A DNA stretch of 64,000 bases from Bacteroidales bacterium. Lineage in GTDB: Bacteria > Bacteroidota > Bacteroidia > Bacteroidales > UBA932. Shown here in pieces: positions 18,872-28,241 of this stretch. A model generated the notes under the pieces. That model had not been told where the DNA came from, ran no database searches, and saw only the letters and a program-made list of their open reading frames with translations. The position numbers and the translations under genes are program-made. Numbering within the stretch: the first letter of the stretch is position 1; each line of letters starts with the position of its first letter. The stretch is from the NCBI GenBank assembly GCA_015060245.1, contig SUYU01000005.1, positions 62,001-126,000 on the forward strand, written 5' to 3'.

Positions 18872-20338
18872 ATGAAAAGATTTATATACAACATAGCAAT
18901 TGCTGCCGGCGTTCTATTGGGAGCATCTTCATGCGAGGGCTTCCTGGATAAAGTGCCTACAGACTCAGTAGTAGCAGAGAGCGCAATGGTAACTATGGAT
19001 GATGCCAAAGTTGCAGCAAACGGTCTTTATACCGAATTGATGTACTACAGTATGTACGGAACACACATCCCTTATCTTGGTGATGTGAGGGCTGACAATA
19101 TCTACCCTAAAGATATGGGCGGTACTGCAAATACCATTTATTTGTTGGACTTCTCCCCTACACAGACTAACTATTTCTCAATGTGGCAAGGCTTCTACAA
19201 CATCATTATGAGAGCCAACACATTCATTGCAAATATCAACACTCTTGAGACAAGTTCAACAGAAGAGGCTGCCCTCAGAGACGATCTAATGGGTCAGGCA
19301 TATGCTGTAAGATCTCTATGCTACTTTGACTTGGCAAGACTTTACGGTTATCCATACCTTAAAGACAACGGCGCTTCTCTTGGTGCAGTAGTTCTTACTT
19401 CAGTAGTTTCACCTTCAGAGGCAAGACTTCCTCGTAACACTGTTGCAGAGACATACGCTCAAGCAGAATCTGACGTTGCTGAGGCTTTGAAATATTTGTC
19501 AAGAGCAAAAAATAACGGCCACTTCAACTATTGGGCAGCAAAAATGCTACAAGGCAAGATTGCCCTTTACAAAGGCAACTACCAGTTGGCATACGATGCA
19601 AACGCAGAGGTTGTAGAGAACTCTCCTTACAGATTGGTTCCAAATGACGAGTATTTGGCTTACTGGAGCAGAGTATGTGACGACGAGTCAGTAATGGAAT
19701 TCCTTGTAACTGCAGATGGCGATATTGACGATGACGGTGGTTTCTACACTATCTACCACAACCTATGGTTTGAGGCAAGCAATGCCGGCAAATCACTTCT
19801 ACCTACAAAGAAATGGAGAGAACTTTTCAAAGATACTCCTAACGATGTACGCGCAGAGATGATCAAATACCACGACCCTGAAACCGGTGTAATCCCTGGT
19901 CAGGAGTTCTACTGGTTGAAAAAATTCGTCGGCAACGAAGGCGGAACAACTTTCAGACAGAACAACCCAAGATTGTTCAGAATTACAGATGCTTACCTTA
20001 TGGCTGCAGAGGCTGCTTGCCACCTTGGCAAACAGAGTGTTGCTGACAACTACTTGAACGCTGTAAGAAAGAGAGCAGATGTTACTGCACAAGATGTAAC
20101 TGCTACTGTTGACCTTGTTCTTACAGAGCGTCACAAAGAGTTCATTGGCGAGGGCCACAGATTCTTTGACGTTATGAGAACTGGCGGTACAATCGTAAGG
20201 GACCAGAGCATTGACGAGCGCGACTACGCAGGTGCTACAAGACAGGTAATTGACTGGAATGACCACAGAATCGTTCTTCCAATCTCTGCTACCGAGCAGA
20301 CTATCTACCCTGAACTTCAACAGAACCCTGGATACTAA
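18872..20338 (+). CDS. SusD/RagB-type substrate-binding lipoprotein
   Basis: I chose the ATG at 18872 (MKRFIYNIAIAAGVLLG, 488 residues), because it directly precedes a lipoprotein signal with lipobox LGASSC. A TTG three codons earlier is less likely. The TPR-like helical SusD fold is recognisable (LMGQAYAVRSLCYFDLARLYG, ITDAYLMAAEAACHLG, LTERHKEFIGEGHRFFDVMR). It sits on the SusC barrel as a lid on the cell surface. It lies 46 bases after susC and ends in a terminator, so the pair is a complete two-gene unit. Confidence 0.95.
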   Translation: MKRFIYNIAIAAGVLLGASSCEGFLDKVPTDSVVAESAMVTMDDAKVAANGLYTELMYYSMYGTHIPYLGDVRADNIYPKDMGGTANTIYLLDFSPTQTNYFSMWQGFYNIIMRANTFIANINTLETSSTEEAALRDDLMGQAYAVRSLCYFDLARLYGYPYLKDNGASLGAVVLTSVVSPSEARLPRNTVAETYAQAESDVAEALKYLSRAKNNGHFNYWAAKMLQGKIALYKGNYQLAYDANAEVVENSPYRLVPNDEYLAYWSRVCDDESVMEFLVTADGDIDDDGGFYTIYHNLWFEASNAGKSLLPTKKWRELFKDTPNDVRAEMIKYHDPETGVIPGQEFYWLKKFVGNEGGTTFRQNNPRLFRITDAYLMAAEAACHLGKQSVADNYLNAVRKRADVTAQDVTATVDLVLTERHKEFIGEGHRFFDVMRTGGTIVRDQSIDERDYAGATRQVIDWNDHRIVLPISATEQTIYPELQQNPGY

Positions 20339-20397: not shown

Positions 20398-20619
20398 ATG
20401 GGCAAAATTCAAGGCTATTAAGGCCGTCGTACAAAATTTAAAGGGAATATATACAGAACAAAAATGAATCGCTCTGCGGCAGTATTTGAGGAGGAAACGG
20501 AAATTTTTAGATTTTCCAACTAATCCAAAATTATTTTAAACAATGCAATACCATTGTAACCTTAACATAACGAAGTTTAAATATTACTAATGCATAAGAA
20601 TACTCTAAAACATTTTTCC

Positions 20620-20628
20620 TATCTTTGC
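20620..20628 (+). promoter_or_regulatory. Candidate promoter of the structured leader
   Basis: TATCTTTGC matches the Bacteroidetes -7 element exactly. A TTG at the usual -33 distance is not seen, which lowers confidence. Transcription from here would include the inverted-repeat element and could continue into the 20957 gene. Confidence 0.45.
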
Positions 20629-20697
20629 ATAGTAAACGATTAATATATTTGCCTATGAAACATTGCGTATAGTCAGATACGCGCATTTAGAAATATA

Positions 20698-20733
20698 ATG
20701 AAAAAGCGTTTTAGCTTTATTCTTTTGCTTTGA
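20698..20733 (+). CDS. Possible 11-residue leader peptide
   Basis: ATG at 20698 opens MKKRFSFILLL followed by TGA. It looks like the start of a signal peptide and ends inside the 5' arm of the inverted-repeat element. It may be a true leader peptide, the decayed start of a secreted protein gene, or chance. No other evidence supports translation. Confidence 0.25.
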   Translation: MKKRFSFILLL

Positions 20734-20851
20734 AAGTTTGGCGACTATAAAAAAGACAAAAAAGAATAATAGTTGAAATGCTCGTGCTGTAGCACGGGCT
20801 TTTTAGTTATTCTTTTGTCGAGGTTACGCCAAACACCCCAAAGCAAGAATA
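20718..20851 (+). ncRNA. Candidate structured RNA: 134-nt nested inverted repeat
   Basis: Successive arms pair around one centre. TATTCTT (20718-20724) pairs with AAGAATA (20845-20851), GCTTTG (20727-20732) with CAAAGC (20839-20844), and GTTTGGCG (20736-20743) with CGCCAAAC (20827-20834). Inside these, GACAAAAAAGAATAA (20755-20769) pairs with TTATTCTTTTGTC (20807-20819) with two bulged A. An apical hairpin lies at 20780-20799. TTATTCTTTT occurs at both 20717 and 20807, so the central AAAAGAATAA can pair either way, which allows alternative folds. It could be a 6S-like long-hairpin RNA, an attenuator, or a MITE-like element. I do not recognise it as a known family. Confidence 0.45.
20780..20804 (+). 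terminator. Hairpin with U-tract inside the inverted-repeat element
   Basis: GCTCGTGCT (20780-20788) and AGCACGGGC (20791-20799) form a 9-bp stem with one mismatch/G-U position and a two-base apex, followed by TTTTT. Alone it would be an intrinsic terminator; within the larger element it may be an apical stem instead. Confidence 0.5.
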
Positions 20852-20956
20852 CTAATAAGTACCGTGCTTTTTTTGTGCGTATTTCAAATTTTAGGTACTA
20901 CGGAGTAATCGAAAAGCCGTCAAGTGAGTAGATTATTATATAAATATAACAGGATT

Positions 20957-21310
20957 ATGAAGAAACTATTGTTTATATTACTGCTGAGCATGACTTCAGT
21001 CACCATTACGACTTCAACTTATGCAAGTTCAATTAATTGTTCAGCCGAACAAGTATGCGTAGAAGTAATGGGAGTATCCGGTAATATTTGGATTGACAAA
21101 AATGAAGCACGAGCAGAATTTCGAAATACGAATAATTACAAAGTGACCGTAACGTGGTCTGTATTTGCATATGATTCATGTAACCAACTAAAAGAAATAG
21201 CATCTGGCACATCAGTCATTAGCCCTAACAACCAAGGGTCAGGTTACACATTTTCAACTACCGGATATTCATCTCCATCATTGAAAATGAAAGTGTACAA
21301 ATGCTCTTAA
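20957..21310 (+). CDS. Small secreted cysteine-containing protein, unknown
   Basis: I chose ATG 20957 (117 residues), which gives a clean signal peptide (MKKLLFILLLSMTSVTITTS, cleavage near STYASS). A GTG 11 codons upstream is less likely. The mature part has four cysteines (in INCSAEQVC, DSCNQ, YKCS) suitable for disulfides, and beta-type sequence (ARAEFRNTNNYKVTVTWSVF) suggesting a small immunoglobulin- or lipocalin-like sandwich. No family recognised. The gene is AT-richer than the flanking housekeeping genes and starts a set of four same-strand envelope genes. Confidence 0.7.
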   Translation: MKKLLFILLLSMTSVTITTSTYASSINCSAEQVCVEVMGVSGNIWIDKNEARAEFRNTNNYKVTVTWSVFAYDSCNQLKEIASGTSVISPNNQGSGYTFSTTGYSSPSLKMKVYKCS

Positions 21311-24028: not shown

Positions 24029-24628
24029 CTATACAAGTCCTGAGAATCCCATGAACGCCATTGCAAGTATACCTGCAGTAATAAGCGCAATAGGAACACC
24101 CTTGAATGCTTTAGGAACACTTGAAAGTTCCAATTGTTCTCTCAAACCTGCAAATAGAGTCATAGCCAATCCAAAACCCAATGCACTTGCAATTGCGTAC
24201 ACAACCGACTCTGCAAGATTCAAGTAATGGGCATCGCCACCAAAAGTGAACTCTTTTGAAACTACAAGAATTGCAACACCCAATACAGCACAGTTTGTAG
24301 TGATCAAAGGCAAGAAAATACCCAAAGCCTGATACAACGCAGGGCTGATCTTTTTAAGTATAATCTCTACCATCTGAACCAGTGCTGCAATTACAAGAAT
24401 AAATGCAATGGTCTGCATGAACTCAATTCCAAGCGGAACTAACAGATAATATTGGACCAAATAGGTAACAAGTGTAGCAACTGCCATAACAAAGCACACA
24501 GCACCAGACATACCAACTGCAGTAGAAACCTTATTTGATACGCCAAGGAATGGACATACGCCCAAGAATTGCGCCAACAAAATGTTGTTTACAAAAACTG
24601 CAGATATTATAATAATTATATATTCCAT
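24029..24628 (-). CDS. rnfA: Rnf complex subunit A (ion-translocating ferredoxin:NAD oxidoreductase)
   Basis: The 199-residue integral membrane protein has six hydrophobic segments and RnfA/NqrE signatures ([49 protein letters not shown]). RnfA and RnfE are inverted-topology paralogues that carry a membrane iron-sulfur centre, using the Cys of VCPFLG and TNCAVLG. It lies 18 bases after rnfE in the order B-C-D-G-E-A. Confidence 0.96.
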
Positions 24629-24646
24629 AGTACTAATTTTTTAAGG

Positions 24647-25228
24647 TTATTTTTTTGTTGCTTTGTTGAACAATACCATAAGATATCCTAAAACAAGGAA
24701 AGCACCAGGCGCAAGCACAAAGGCCAACATACCATCACCTTCAACCAATTTGTTTCCAAATACAGACAGGCCACCCAACAACTCTCTTACAAATCCGATA
24801 GTTGTCAATGAAAGTGTAAAACCAAGTCCGATACCAACACCGTCAAGTGCCGAATCAATCACAGAGTTCTTGCATGCAAAAGCCTCAGCCCTGCCCAATA
24901 CGATACAGTTAACCACAATCAGTGGAATGAACAGACCCAAAGTAGCATACAAAGCAGGAACATAGGCCTGCATAACAAACTGAAGAACAGTTACCAATGC
25001 TGCAATAACAACAATGTAACTAGGAATCTTCACTTTAGCAGGAATAAGAGGGGCAATTGCAGAAATCACCATATTTGACAAAATCAACACAAATGTTGTT
25101 GCCAAACCCATACCCATACCATTGATTGCCGAGGTAGTTGTACCCAAAGTAGGACACATACCCAATACCAATACAAATGTAGGGTTCTCCTTAATTATAC
25201 CTTTTAATATCAATCCAAATTTACCCAT
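24647..25228 (-). CDS. rnfE: Rnf complex subunit E
   Basis: I chose the ATG at 25228 (MGKFGLILKGIIKENPTFVL, 193 residues), right after the rnfG stop. The frame is open seven codons further upstream, inside rnfG. The six-TM protein has the conserved Cys segments LGMCPTLGTTTSAINGMGMG and VNCIVLGRAEAFA, which match RnfE/NqrD. It partners RnfA in the membrane iron-sulfur pathway. Confidence 0.95.
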   Translation of the reverse strand: MGKFGLILKGIIKENPTFVLVLGMCPTLGTTTSAINGMGMGLATTFVLILSNMVISAIAPLIPAKVKIPSYIVVIAALVTVLQFVMQAYVPALYATLGLFIPLIVVNCIVLGRAEAFACKNSVIDSALDGVGIGLGFTLSLTTIGFVRELLGGLSVFGNKLVEGDGMLAFVLAPGAFLVLGYLMVLFNKATKK

Positions 25229-25229
25229 A

Positions 25230-25886
25230 TTAGTTTTGAGCCTCCTCACTCGCGTTTGCAGCCTCCTGAACCTCCTCTACAGGTTGTTCAGCATCAGCCT
25301 TTACGTTATTTTTATTAGCCTCACAAAATGCCTTGTAGGCATTCTCAATAACATCACAGTATGCTCTTGAAGTAATTGTAGAAGCAGTGATTGCATCAAT
25401 GTCACCACCATCTTTCTTCACAGAGAGTTTGAAGTTTGGATCAGCCGGATTCTTGCCCTCGAACTGAGTTACAAAATGGCTCTGGCTGTCATCAATCTTC
25501 GCGCCCAAACCTGGAGTTTCCGCATGGGAAATTACAGATGTCTTTACAAGTGAACCGTCTGGTTTGAAACCGACCATCAAAGTAATGTTTCCGCCGAATC
25601 CTTTTGAAGAAGAGGCCTCAATTGCATAACCTACAATCTCCTCACCCTTCTTTGCCGGATAGACATTCGATTTCTTGCCGTCAACCTCAACTGTGAACAT
25701 TTCAGCAGAAGGAGCATTGTCAAACTCTGGCACAACTCCTCCAATTGCACCATTGATTTTAGCGATCTGCGCTGCATCAATAGGCTCTTTTGTCAGTGCA
25801 TAAACACCACCCAACACTGCAGATGCAATAAGGCATACTGCGAACAGTGTTACTGACATATTTACAAATGTAGATTCTCTTGCCAT
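25230..25886 (-). CDS. rnfG: Rnf complex FMN-binding subunit G
   Basis: The 218-residue protein has one N-terminal membrane anchor (MSVTLFAVCLIASAVLGGVYA) and an extracytoplasmic FMN_bind domain. The region GGDIDAITASTITSRAYCDVI holds the Thr that should carry covalent FMN (S/T-x-x-T-x-T-S type). The C-terminal 30 residues are Ala/Glu-rich. Its ATG overlaps the rnfD stop by one base, indicating tight coupling. Confidence 0.93.
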   Translation of the reverse strand: MARESTFVNMSVTLFAVCLIASAVLGGVYALTKEPIDAAQIAKINGAIGGVVPEFDNAPSAEMFTVEVDGKKSNVYPAKKGEEIVGYAIEASSSKGFGGNITLMVGFKPDGSLVKTSVISHAETPGLGAKIDDSQSHFVTQFEGKNPADPNFKLSVKKDGGDIDAITASTITSRAYCDVIENAYKAFCEANKNNVKADAEQPVEEVQEAANASEEAQN

Positions 25887-26881
25887 TATTTTGCCTCCTT
25901 TGCGAAACGTTTAGGTTTAACATACATGTTGATTAGAGGAACAGTTGCATTCATGATAAGAATGGCAAATGAGATACCCTCAGGATAAGCACCGAACTCA
26001 CGGATAAGTATTGTAATGATACCGATACCGGCACCAAAGATTATCATACCCTTCTCGCTCATAGGTGATGTAACGTAGTCGGTAGCCATAAAGATGGAGC
26101 CCAACAACATACCACCTGTAAGAAGATTGAAGATAGGATCTGTAAACTGGTCAGGGTTGCACAACCATAGAATTCCTGAGAATACAAATACTGTAGCCCA
26201 AATAGAAAGAGTTATGTGAGGTTTGATGACTCTTCTTACAAGAAGATATACAAAGCCCAACAAAAGGGCAATTGCAGATACCTCACCGGCAGAACCGACC
26301 CTTGCAAACAACAATTGTGAATATGAAAGAGACGGGTTCTGTGCAAAAATCTCGCTTACAGGAGTTCCTGCAGCGACAGCCTCCTTAACCAATGCCAATG
26401 GAGTTGCTCCAGAAGCGGCATCAAGGGATGCACCGAAGAAAGATGCAGGAGCAGTCCAGTCTGTCATAAGTACAGGGAACGAAACCAATAGGAATACACG
26501 GCCCACCAATGCAGGGTTGAACAAGTTCTGTCCCAAGCCGCCGAAAGTCATCTTTGCAACACCGATTGCCACAATGGCACCAATTACCATAAGCCACCAA
26601 GGTGAGTTAGGCGGAAGGTTTAGAGCCAAAAGCACACCGGTTAGTGCTGCTGAACAGTCGCAAATTGTACATTTGCCCTTAAGAAGGAATTTCTGGATAA
26701 GAAACTCCACCAACATACATGAGATCACGCCAACCAATACCAATTTGATTGCCGAGAATCCAAAGTAATATATCGAAACCGCAACTGCAGGGAGCAATGC
26801 AATGATTACATCCCTCATCAAGTTTCTGGTATTTTCCTTTCCGTGGATGTGCGGAGAAGGTGATACAAGCAGTTTTTTCAT
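25886..26881 (-). CDS. rnfD: Rnf complex subunit D
   Basis: The 331-residue multi-pass membrane protein (NqrB/RnfD family) has the covalent-flavin motif in DAASGATPLALVKEA and a conserved FGGLGQNLFNPALVGRVFL segment. It takes part in ion translocation coupled to electron transfer between ferredoxin and NAD+. It lies 28 bases after rnfC. Confidence 0.96.
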   Translation of the reverse strand: MKKLLVSPSPHIHGKENTRNLMRDVIIALLPAVAVSIYYFGFSAIKLVLVGVISCMLVEFLIQKFLLKGKCTICDCSAALTGVLLALNLPPNSPWWLMVIGAIVAIGVAKMTFGGLGQNLFNPALVGRVFLLVSFPVLMTDWTAPASFFGASLDAASGATPLALVKEAVAAGTPVSEIFAQNPSLSYSQLLFARVGSAGEVSAIALLLGFVYLLVRRVIKPHITLSIWATVFVFSGILWLCNPDQFTDPIFNLLTGGMLLGSIFMATDYVTSPMSEKGMIIFGAGIGIITILIREFGAYPEGISFAILIMNATVPLINMYVKPKRFAKEAK

Positions 26882-26909
26882 TCTTAGTTATTTAAATTAG
26901 CATTAATTG

Positions 26910-28241
26910 TTATTTTTTAGGACGGCTACGCATGATACCCATAACTTTTGCCTTGCCGAATCTTATGCTGTCCAATAGAGGAATGTAAGCAGGACATGTA
27001 AACTGGCAACAGCCGCACTCAATACAATCATAGATGAAATGAGCCTCAGCATCGTCCCAACGGGCAACCTTGCTCAATTTGTTCAAAAGATAAGGCTCAA
27101 GACCCATAGGACAAGCACTTACACATTTGCCACATCTGATACAATTGCTCTCCTCCTTTCTCTTTGTCTGCTCCTCTGTCAAATAAAGTACAGAAGATGA
27201 TCCTTTAAGAGTTGGAGCATCAAGGTTTGCCATAGCCTTACCCATCATAGGACCACCGCTGATAACCTTTGCAGCACTCTCAGGAATACCGCCGGTAACC
27301 TCAATTATCTTGCTTATAGGTGTACCTACCCTGTGTTTGTAGTTCTTTTGCACATTGCTGCACTGTCCGGTAACTGTAAGGATACCCTCAAACAGAGGTT
27401 TGTTTTTCTGTACAGCCTCATAAACAGCCAAAGCAGTACCTACGTTCTGCACTACAGCACCTGTATCAATTGGAAGGCCTTTTGAAGGAACCCTTCTTCC
27501 AACAACTGCGTCAATCAACTGCTTCTCACCACCCTGTGGATATTTCTTTTTCAATACCACAACTTTGATTTGAGGATATGCAGAAGCATATTTGTTCAAA
27601 ATCTCAATAGCCTTAGGCTTGTTCTCCTCAATGCCAATGAAACCTTGTGTCACATTAAGCGCCTTCATCATTATTGAAGCACCTATAAGCACCTGCTCAG
27701 GCATCTCAACCAATACTCTGTAGTCAGATGTAAGATATGGCTCACACTCTGCAGCGTTAATGATAAGGAACTCTGCTTTTTTACCTGGAGGAGGTGATAG
27801 TTTTACGTTGGTCGGGAATGTTGCACCACCCAAACCTACAACACCACACTCTTGAATTTTTGCAATAATCTCTTTGGAGTCAAGTTTGATCTCCTTTACA
27901 ATTGCATCTGAACGGTCAATTGTCTCTACCCACTCATCACCCTCTACAGTAATTACAACTGCCTTGCAAGGGTTACCGGCCAAATCCTTGATTGTATCAA
28001 TCGCTTTGACAGTACCGCTTACAGATGAGTGTACGGGAGCAGAGATGAAACCACTTGCATTGGCTATAAGTTGACCGACCTTTACTTTGTCTCCAACCGC
28101 AACAATAGGCTCCGCAGGAGCACCCAGGTGTTGCGACATAGAGATATATGCTGTTTCAGGAATCGGGAAATTCTCAATGGCCGCATCACAAGAGATCTTG
28201 TTGTCAGCAGGATGAACTCCACCTAGCGAAAATGTCTTCAT
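26910..28241 (-). CDS. rnfC: Rnf complex subunit C (NADH/flavin-binding, 2x 4Fe-4S)
   Basis: The 443-residue protein has an N-terminal barrel-sandwich region, an NADH/FMN-binding NuoF-like domain (GVVGLGGATFPTNVKL, INAAECEPYLTSDYRVL) and two ferredoxin clusters near the C-terminus (CIRCGKCVSACPMGLEP and CIECGCCQFTCPAYIPL). It docks NAD(H) in the Rnf complex on the cytoplasmic face. Length is typical of the short bacterial form. Confidence 0.97.
   Translation of the reverse strand: MKTFSLGGVHPADNKISCDAAIENFPIPETAYISMSQHLGAPAEPIVAVGDKVKVGQLIANASGFISAPVHSSVSGTVKAIDTIKDLAGNPCKAVVITVEGDEWVETIDRSDAIVKEIKLDSKEIIAKIQECGVVGLGGATFPTNVKLSPPPGKKAEFLIINAAECEPYLTSDYRVLVEMPEQVLIGASIMMKALNVTQGFIGIEENKPKAIEILNKYASAYPQIKVVVLKKKYPQGGEKQLIDAVVGRRVPSKGLPIDTGAVVQNVGTALAVYEAVQKNKPLFEGILTVTGQCSNVQKNYKHRVGTPISKIIEVTGGIPESAAKVISGGPMMGKAMANLDAPTLKGSSSVLYLTEEQTKRKEESNCIRCGKCVSACPMGLEPYLLNKLSKVARWDDAEAHFIYDCIECGCCQFTCPAYIPLLDSIRFGKAKVMGIMRSRPKK

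Follow-up and report, generated by a model that had tools for sequence, protein, structure and literature searches.

A structured RNA whose arms exclude one another, and a candidate leader of exported-protein genes, in the Bacteroidales

A patch of nested inverted repeats in a Bacteroidales genome raises two questions: is it a structured RNA and, if so, what might it do for the genes that follow it? The patch lies in the window (the whole 64,000-nt stretch of DNA analysed here) between a SusC/SusD-like gene pair, recognized by eye and ending at 20338, and a run of small exported-looking proteins, one with an OmpA domain, that begins at 20957. An earlier note, made from the letters alone, had pointed to the repeats and to two folds that would compete for one of them. 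Comparison with relatives supports a structured RNA with mutually exclusive arms that matches no Rfam family.

The element in the window

The arms are exactly as the earlier note gave them, with the repeat TTATTCTTTT at 20717-20726 and again at 20807-20816, and its partner AAAAGAATAA at 20760-20769. Two other features that it named are also in place: a −7 promoter match about 100 bases upstream (TATCTTTG at 20620-20627, ~98 nt 5' of 20718), which we take to be a Bacteroidetes −7 box by the TAnnTTTG consensus, and a hairpin with a T-run in the apex (GCTCGTGC-TGTA-GCACGGGC, then TTTTT, 20780-20804). The RNA from 20700 to 20860 folds at −56.4 kcal/mol, as compared to a shuffle mean of −30.1 (z −6.93), and none of 200 shuffles folds as well. 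A default repeat search of 20500-21200 listed no repeat; the arms are invisible to a search of this kind.

The repeat arms of the nested element proposed at 20718..20851 are real, but these limits are too narrow, as pairing and conservation span the region from the promoter box to ~20931. The locus is one copy of a structured RNA that extends from the promoter-like box at 20620-20627 to ~20931, i.e., to 25 nt 5' of the ATG (20957) of an exported-protein gene. Its parts are as follows, all on the + strand:

20620..20627, +: −7 promoter-like box TATCTTTG, TAnnTTTG type
20655..20672, +: minimal ORF ATG AAA CAT TGC GTA TAG (MKHCV*), with the conserved TTTGCCT just before it
20665..20682, +: local hairpin H1, GCGTAT/ATACGC, which competes with P1
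20677..20684, +: P1 5' strand ATACGCGC, partner 20875-20882
20701..20707, +: P2 5' strand AAAAAGC, partner the U-run at 20866-20872
20703..20707 with 20714..20718, +: local hairpin H2, which shares the P2 5' strand
20717..20726, +: first copy of TTATTCTTTT, in P3/P4 in the closed fold, otherwise in ALT2 with 20760-20769
20725..20732, +: P4 5' strand TTGCTTTG, partner 20839-20846
20736..20743, +: P5 5' strand GTTTGGCG, partner 20827-20834
20760..20769, +: P6 5' strand AAAAGAATAA, partner 20807-20816
20780..20799, +: P7 apical hairpin GCTCGTGC-TGTA-GCACGGGC
20792..20797, +: switching strand GCACGG, in P7 or in ALT with CCGTGC at 20862-20867
20807..20851, +: 3' strands of P6 (20807-20816), P5 (20827-20834), P4 (20839-20846), and P3 (20847-20851)
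20859..20874, +: GTACCGTGC-TTTTTTT, holding the P0' 5' strand, the ALT 3' strand, and the U-run
20875..20882, +: P1 3' strand GTGCGTAT, 3' of the U-run
20894..20898, +: P0' 3' strand GGTAC, partner GTACC at 20859-20863
20901..20931, +: DUF805b-like 3' tail CGG..TCGAAAAGCCG..GAGTAG
20957..21310, +: gene for an orphan 117-aa protein with a signal-peptide-like N-terminus; ATG chosen, the ORF list starting at GTG 20924

If P0', P1, and P2 all form at once, P0' makes a pseudoknot with P1/P2. A reading frame within the element, at 20698-20733 (ATGAAAAAGCGTTTTAGC...), reads MKKRFSFILLL* and resembles a cut-off signal peptide. A coding role for this frame was rejected; by eye, it is not kept in three relatives (L002, L003, and L032). 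Beyond the element, an Rnf-type electron transport operon was seen by eye on the minus strand at 24029-28241, beside the exported-protein cluster.

Relatives, covariation, and known RNA families

The genome of origin, 2.2 Mb in size, holds a single copy by blastn and by both covariance models described below. Across 61 genomes, blastn gave one strong match, in a member of another family of the order (G056; 76% identity, E 6e-37), and a weaker second match in G054. In a four-copy alignment, conservation runs from ~20648 to 20882, the long-range stem P1 included. A covariance model made from four aligned copies (R1) matches 136 of 393 genomes of the order at E 0.01, where E-values are rough and the weakest matches may be due to chance. 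Within the genus, R1 matches 18 of 39 genomes at the same cut-off, and only the genome of origin and G015 (112.3 bits) exceed 66 bits.

A pattern scan of named genomes returned at least 119 stretches. The pattern demands TTTGCCTATG, a purine, and AAAGCG..TAGC, so the motif is present in these stretches by construction; the stop codon lies outside the pattern. Among the first 80 stretches, 61 pass R1 at E 0.01, two of them (L137 and L141) with scores of only ~25 bits. The titles of all 61 name Bacteroidota, including Rikenellaceae, Alistipes, Bacteroidaceae, Paludibacteraceae, Lentimicrobiaceae, Odoribacter, Muribaculaceae, and Dysgonomonas; R1 is passed by none of the 16 non-Bacteroidota and none of the three further Bacteroidota pattern matches among these 80. 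The other 39 stretches yielded 28 that pass.

A second model (R2), of the core only, was built from 90 non-redundant copies. At E 1e-5, with at most 150 candidates scored per genome, R2 finds 3-24 copies in each of 12 Bacteroidales genomes, picked for a prior R1 match, and none in six genomes of other phyla, picked for chance pattern matches. Across the phylum, at E 1e-10, 15 of 247 genomes have a match, the genome of origin among them and the other 14 outside the order; 15 of the 20 places in these 14 genomes were retrieved, and all show the same core. The earlier note had held that an absence of conservation would speak against a structured RNA, and relatives across the Bacteroidales contradict any such absence. 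By these sequence matches, the repeat belongs to a widespread and apparently uncatalogued RNA leader of the Bacteroidales.

Covariation across relatives, a check that the earlier note had named, reveals heavy compensatory change in the core helices. Boundary finding started with 142 records, of which nine failed and one (L214) was removed by hand; the remaining 132 copies reduce to 90 non-redundant ones (<80% identity), and 85 of these have a 3' segment that matches the search expression. Over the 31 pairs of P2, P4, P5, and P7 in 90 sequences, 88.8% of cells are paired, and 422 cells carry double changes vs 140 in shuffled data; sliding the partners by 1-3 columns reduces pairing to 34-57%. 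Both partners vary in all eight pairs of P4 (83.9% of cells paired) and in five of the eight pairs of P7 (97.9%). In P5, 94.3% of cells are paired, and one pair is CG in 30 copies, GC in 30, UA in 19, and AU in nine. P2 is mostly conserved, with 77.8% of cells paired.

We also used a swap test, which compares the native partner of an arm with the corresponding strands of less closely related copies. Native partners are preferred for P4+P5 (p 4.5e-16), P6 (p 3.0e-14), P7 (p 6.9e-14), and P0' (p 1.9e-14, with the native pair beating at least 90% of swaps in 41 of 85 copies), while negative-control pairs gave p 0.65, 0.42, and 0.055, the last in the opposite direction; kinship inflates both the shuffle and the swap statistics, and the negative controls offset that only in part. 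P2 (p 0.83) and H2 (p 0.17) give no covariation signal because they are too conserved. A cruder swap test, with boundaries faulty in some copies, gave p 2.5e-5 for P1, 0.41 for P2, 0.011 for ALT, and 2e-10 for P0'. Conserved sequence also occurs outside the helices, e.g., as GGT..ACC flanking P5.

The earlier note recognized no known class. This is true of the core, which is unmatched in Rfam searches of the window and 39 relative loci, but the note missed the 3' tail, which is related to DUF805b. A scan of the whole window against Rfam 15 at gathering thresholds gave no match, and no 6S family, for which a search had been suggested, came up in the window at E values up to 10. The best sub-threshold match of the core is the Bacteroides small RNA BTnc231 (RF04180), at 23.2 bits vs a cut-off of 80.4. 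The window tail scores 13.5 bits against DUF805b (RF02914) at 20900-20934, below the gathering score of 35.6. Of ten relative loci searched at E up to 1, six have a DUF805b match, above the cut-off in L037 (38.8 bits) and below it in L046 (32.1), L219 (30.2), L072 (28.1), L217 (27.3), and L039 (21.4); a seventh, L202, has DUF805 directly after the core, at 75.9 bits vs a cut-off of 51.1; and three (L047, L056, and L221) have neither.

DUF805b and DUF805 (RF03081) are cis-regulatory families of clan CL00115 and, in the loci viewed, both lie just upstream of start codons. Copies of type A resemble them in ending with a hairpin tail, CGG..CCGAAAAGCCG..GAGTAGG; type-B copies lack the tail (by eye). 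The two Rfam models span only 35 and 68 nt, respectively, without the 180-nt core, P1, P0', or the mini-ORF. DUF805 occurs in 78 of 198 genomes of the order, the genome of origin not being one of them. Two places (G180:C117 and G188:C121) have DUF805 adjacent to the core by coordinates as well. Since the window tail scores only 13.5 bits and just one of the best 30 DUF805 loci has the core, the core and the DUF805 tail are separate modules that are sometimes joined. Stand-alone DUF805 leaders (L289, L292, L294, and L298) share by eye a similar small upstream frame, roughly MGKxxKRHSGMTREPP..FDSS, which might encode a leader peptide or be a remnant. Full-text literature searches, with subscription-journal papers outside their coverage, turned up no description in which the element could be recognized.

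Partners of the apical strand, the 5' end, and the genes downstream

The arms do exclude one another, as the earlier note had proposed, but the best competing pair is not TTATTCTTTT/AAAAGAATAA. It is formed by the 3' arm of the apical hairpin, which reads GCACGG here and usually GCGTGG in the family and can pair within P7 or with CCGTGC. The second pairing, ALT, joins the apical strand to the segment right before the U-run. ALT is paired in 97.6% of cells vs 29-64% in slid controls, has 32 double-change cells vs 9.1 in shuffled data (none of 500 shuffles as high), and prefers its native partners in the swap test (p 1.1e-10).

The 3' half of the core (apical strand through U-run) was folded in isolation for 85 copies; every one forms ALT, with a mean of −27.5 kcal/mol and z < −2 in 82. 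The search expressions for this set demand TTTT and restrict letters, so both the U-run and some of the complementarity in ALT are there by construction. Held-out model matches without the T demand (n = 37) form ALT in all cases except one (L264), with at least five T in 33 and z < −2 in 33. A T-run of at least five follows in 36 of 40 model matches unfiltered for T. At 15 loci outside the order, ALT forms in every case with z < −2, and nine of the 15 have at least five T; as the hairpin is kept in all 15 and the T-run in only nine, ALT outside the order is probably not solely an intrinsic terminator. Within the order, the ALT hairpin and U-run look like a terminator, apart from the long loop (median 62 nt). 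There, at the level of sequence, the terminator hairpin with its U-run and another conserved hairpin are mutually exclusive, as they are in an attenuator.

The competing pair of the earlier note, ALT2 (20717-20726 with 20760-20769), appears to be a weak feature with modest support (swap test p 1.9e-6; mean duplex −7.5 vs −5.5 kcal/mol shuffled). The 5' half alone also folds weakly, with a mean z of −0.89 and z < −2 in only 10 of 85 copies. Opening the closed fold into its two half-folds would cost 23.8 kcal/mol on average, so a terminated state would need either a co-transcriptional set-up or a factor that holds the 5' half apart. P7 of the window is itself followed by TTTTT (20780-20804) and resembles a small terminator. 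Termination at the apical hairpin alone was considered and rejected; by eye, relatives usually have only three or four T after P7.

At the 5' end, TAnnTTTG is found in 122 of 163 upstream regions vs 11.3 expected from mononucleotide shuffles, at a median of 36.5 nt 5' of the mini-ORF in the 84 copies with both. Copies with a GCCTATG-like motif have a stop after 0-5 sense codons in 106 of 109 cases (expected 41 ± 5; maximum 55 in 200 shuffles). These 106 mini-ORFs encode 38 kinds of peptide, among them M*, MK*, MKH*, MKHCV*, ME*, and MI*. The start and the shortness of the mini-ORF are conserved, and the peptide sequence is not. Motif-less copies show a weaker excess of short ORFs (a fraction of 0.64 of 44 ATGs vs 0.41 ± 0.08), and the 58 nt upstream of the core lack an ATG altogether in 25 of 165 copies. 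Four of the ATG-less copies (L203, L204, L243, and L244) precede export-signal genes.

The mini-ORF goes together with P1. P1 has the common form ATACGCRCAT/ATGTGCGTAT and a covaried form, ACATACAT/ATGTATGT, in L032; its native duplex averages −10.8 vs −5.3 kcal/mol with a shuffled partner, and the swap test gave p 4.6e-5, with 12 of 103 copies in the top 10%. P1 with z < −2 is present in 63 of 123 mini-ORF copies vs none of 28 copies without a mini-ORF (Fisher p 4.4e-8, n = 151). The mini-ORF stop lies at a median of 6 nt before the best P1 duplex (10-90%: −3 to 13), for which the search began 12 nt after the ATG, a limit on the closest possible distance between stop and P1. Among 103 mini-ORF copies, 71 have a local fold, H1, that takes up the P1 5' strand; H1 itself is only mildly stable (mean z −1.47; z < −2 in 40 of 103). 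P1 and P0' each need a strand that lies 3' of the U-run and would therefore act in read-through mRNA; through its association with P1, the mini-ORF belongs to the same layer. It is too far upstream to mask core strands; in the window it lies at 20655-20672, 5' of the core.

The copies have a consistent position with respect to the next gene. Because the same genomes occur in two collections, some loci are duplicates, and identical cores were removed before downstream ORFs were counted. Of the resulting 167 unique elements, 157 have an ORF start within 150 nt downstream, nine do not, and one is at a contig end. By a simple home-made hydrophobicity rule, the ORF carries an export signal after 130 of the 157 elements, vs 267 of 885 control ORFs (at least 150 aa, same loci); 42 of the 130 export-like proteins have a lipobox, and among the 27 negatives at least five seem by eye to have a signal peptide that the rule missed (L103, L118, L164, L211, and L270). 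Both flanks are available for 109 copies. A same-strand ORF follows within 150 nt in 103 of these, 90 of them export-like, and an opposite-strand ORF is present upstream in 21, two of them export-like. Exceptions occur in G309, where four of 17 copies precede proteins without an export signal and four more have no ORF within 150 nt. Six other copies in this genome (L232, L240, and L243-L246) stand before exported proteins whose signal peptides are nearly identical and end in LCANVL.AQ. Outside the order, three cores (L274, L275, and L278) lie by eye ~225 nt upstream of SusC-like genes.

In the window, the next gene encodes the 117-aa protein, for which a search of 295 genomes of the order gave a match only in the genome of origin. 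It has no Pfam match over the cut-off and no match in viral contigs. Since the protein is confined to its own genome (1/295), the leader is better conserved than its gene.

Readings of the element

Computation establishes the homology of the copies, their orientation and position, the enrichment of the promoter box, the helices, the conservation of two alternative partners for the apical strand, a 3' half that folds autonomously into a terminator-like shape, and the co-occurrence of the mini-ORF with P1. From these features we infer transcription, actual termination, and a regulatory role. We propose that the element is a cis-acting 5' leader of exported-protein genes that works as a transcription attenuator, a reading that, on the sequence comparisons, has in our view about an even chance of being right. 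Transcription would start just 3' of the TAnnTTTG box. Read-through would correspond to a fold in which the two halves pair with each other (P3-P6), the apical strand is kept in P7, and the A-rich 5' strand sequesters the U-run (P2). For termination, the apical GCGTGG would leave P7 and pair with CCACGC, which immediately precedes the U-run; the 3' half as a whole would self-fold into a terminator hairpin, and polymerase would stop ~50-110 nt 5' of the start codon (82 nt in the window). After read-through, P1, P0', and, in some copies, the DUF805b-like tail would shape the mRNA up to the gene. In copies of the window type, a ribosome on the minimal ORF may melt H1 and free the P1 5' strand, which would link translation near the 5' end with the closed form of the mRNA.

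Attenuators of the trp/his type use alternative terminator and antiterminator hairpins. The element resembles such leaders in having three segments with one shared strand, a terminator-like hairpin with a U-run and, in window-type copies, a short 5' ORF. It differs in that this ORF has 0-5 codons after the ATG, is unconserved, and lies clear of the core switching strands; in its 180-nt core; and in its targets, which are diverse exported proteins and belong to no single pathway. Conserved regulatory codons over the switching strands, the mark of a leader-peptide attenuator, were not found, given 38 peptides among 106 mini-ORFs. No common pathway among the targets suggests a riboswitch ligand. 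Counting against attenuation are the long terminator loop, the weak fold of the 5' half, the greater stability of the closed fold, the retention of ALT outside the order where the T-run is short, the distance of the mini-ORF from the core strands, and the copies that precede genes without export signals.

Some of the same evidence can be read differently. The element may be a cis leader that controls translation or mRNA stability and is bound by a protein or small molecule shared by an exported-protein regulon; ALT and P0' would then be switch or pseudoknot pairings of the finished mRNA, with no terminator. Sequence conservation outside the helices, such as GGT..ACC around P5, favors this idea, as does the covarying P0', part of which lies 3' of the U-run, restricting it to read-through mRNA; moreover, six of 15 loci outside the order keep ALT and lack a T-run of five. 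However, by itself it leaves unexplained the U-run that so frequently follows ALT within the order (36 of 40 unfiltered matches), and we consider it possible but on the unlikely side. A trans-acting small RNA gene that stands before exported-protein genes by chance would account for the promoter box and the terminator-like 3' end, which together would delimit a discrete RNA of ~240 nt; it does not fit the 103 of 109 copies with a same-strand ORF within 150 nt, nor the conservation of paired segments 3' of the U-run (P1 and P0'), and seems to us very unlikely. The multiple copies in many genomes and the patchy distribution in the genus (the genome of origin and G015 alone above 66 bits) might suggest a MITE or other selfish repeat, yet the blastn check for further copies that the earlier note had suggested found one only in the genome of origin, as did both models. 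In G309, the 17 copies share 62-87% core identity (median 72%) with no near-identical pair; the copies have a fixed orientation toward the next gene and compensatory changes; and none of six viral contigs that match the pattern passes the model. These results make a mobile repeat hardly credible. In phages and plasmids, blastn gave no match to window 20600-20950. A retron was likewise rejected; no reverse transcriptase was recognized by eye among the neighboring ORFs, and the downstream genes are unrelated exported proteins.

The mini-ORF invites another comparison, with the ribosome shunt of pararetroviruses. A bacterial analogue would translate a minimal ORF, stop at the foot of a hairpin, bypass it, and reinitiate at the start of the exported protein. 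In mini-ORF copies only, the arrangement of a shunt leader is present, i.e., a conserved start, a near stop, and a stem a few nucleotides on: the start and shortness are kept while the peptide varies (106/109; 38 peptides), the median of 6 nt to P1 was obtained with a search begun 12 nt after the ATG, and the mini-ORF and P1 co-occur. Against this stand the 25 of 165 copies without an upstream ATG, among them the four before export-signal genes listed above. We know of no established case of reinitiation by scanning in bacteria, and ribosomes of Bacteroidetes are able to start at the main ATG without such a detour; a shunt is, overall, improbable. The layout is nonetheless similar to that described for the cauliflower mosaic virus leader, with a minimal ORF that ends ~6 nt short of a long hairpin and a main ORF past the far foot of that hairpin; in that virus, the sORF stop is six nucleotides upstream of the stem base, and mutations in the sORF start or stop nearly abolish shunting while coding changes do not (PMC2241666). 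The viral leader belongs to a eukaryotic scanning system and has no sequence relation to the element, and reinitiation here would be an analogy alone. Closer to bacteria, the axe-txe minigene is a two-codon mini-ORF that acts in cis (PMC8708949). As in the Bacteroidales element, it lies in a bacterial transcript in cis to a downstream gene; in axe-txe it is translated, and the abstract of that paper mentions no comparable structured element. A broader version, in which a shunt-like device and a terminator switch, in several to two dozen copies per genome, would exert global post-initiation control over the Bacteroidales secretome, is by the same analogy a long shot.

If the attenuator reading is right, many gut and rumen Bacteroidales steer unrelated exported proteins with one multi-copy RNA element, which would combine an RNA switch with a start-stop ORF under selection for shortness. 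The conserved part would be the leader and not the gene, the protein in the window being an orphan. The element would also give a longer context to the small DUF805 and DUF805b motifs in Rfam.
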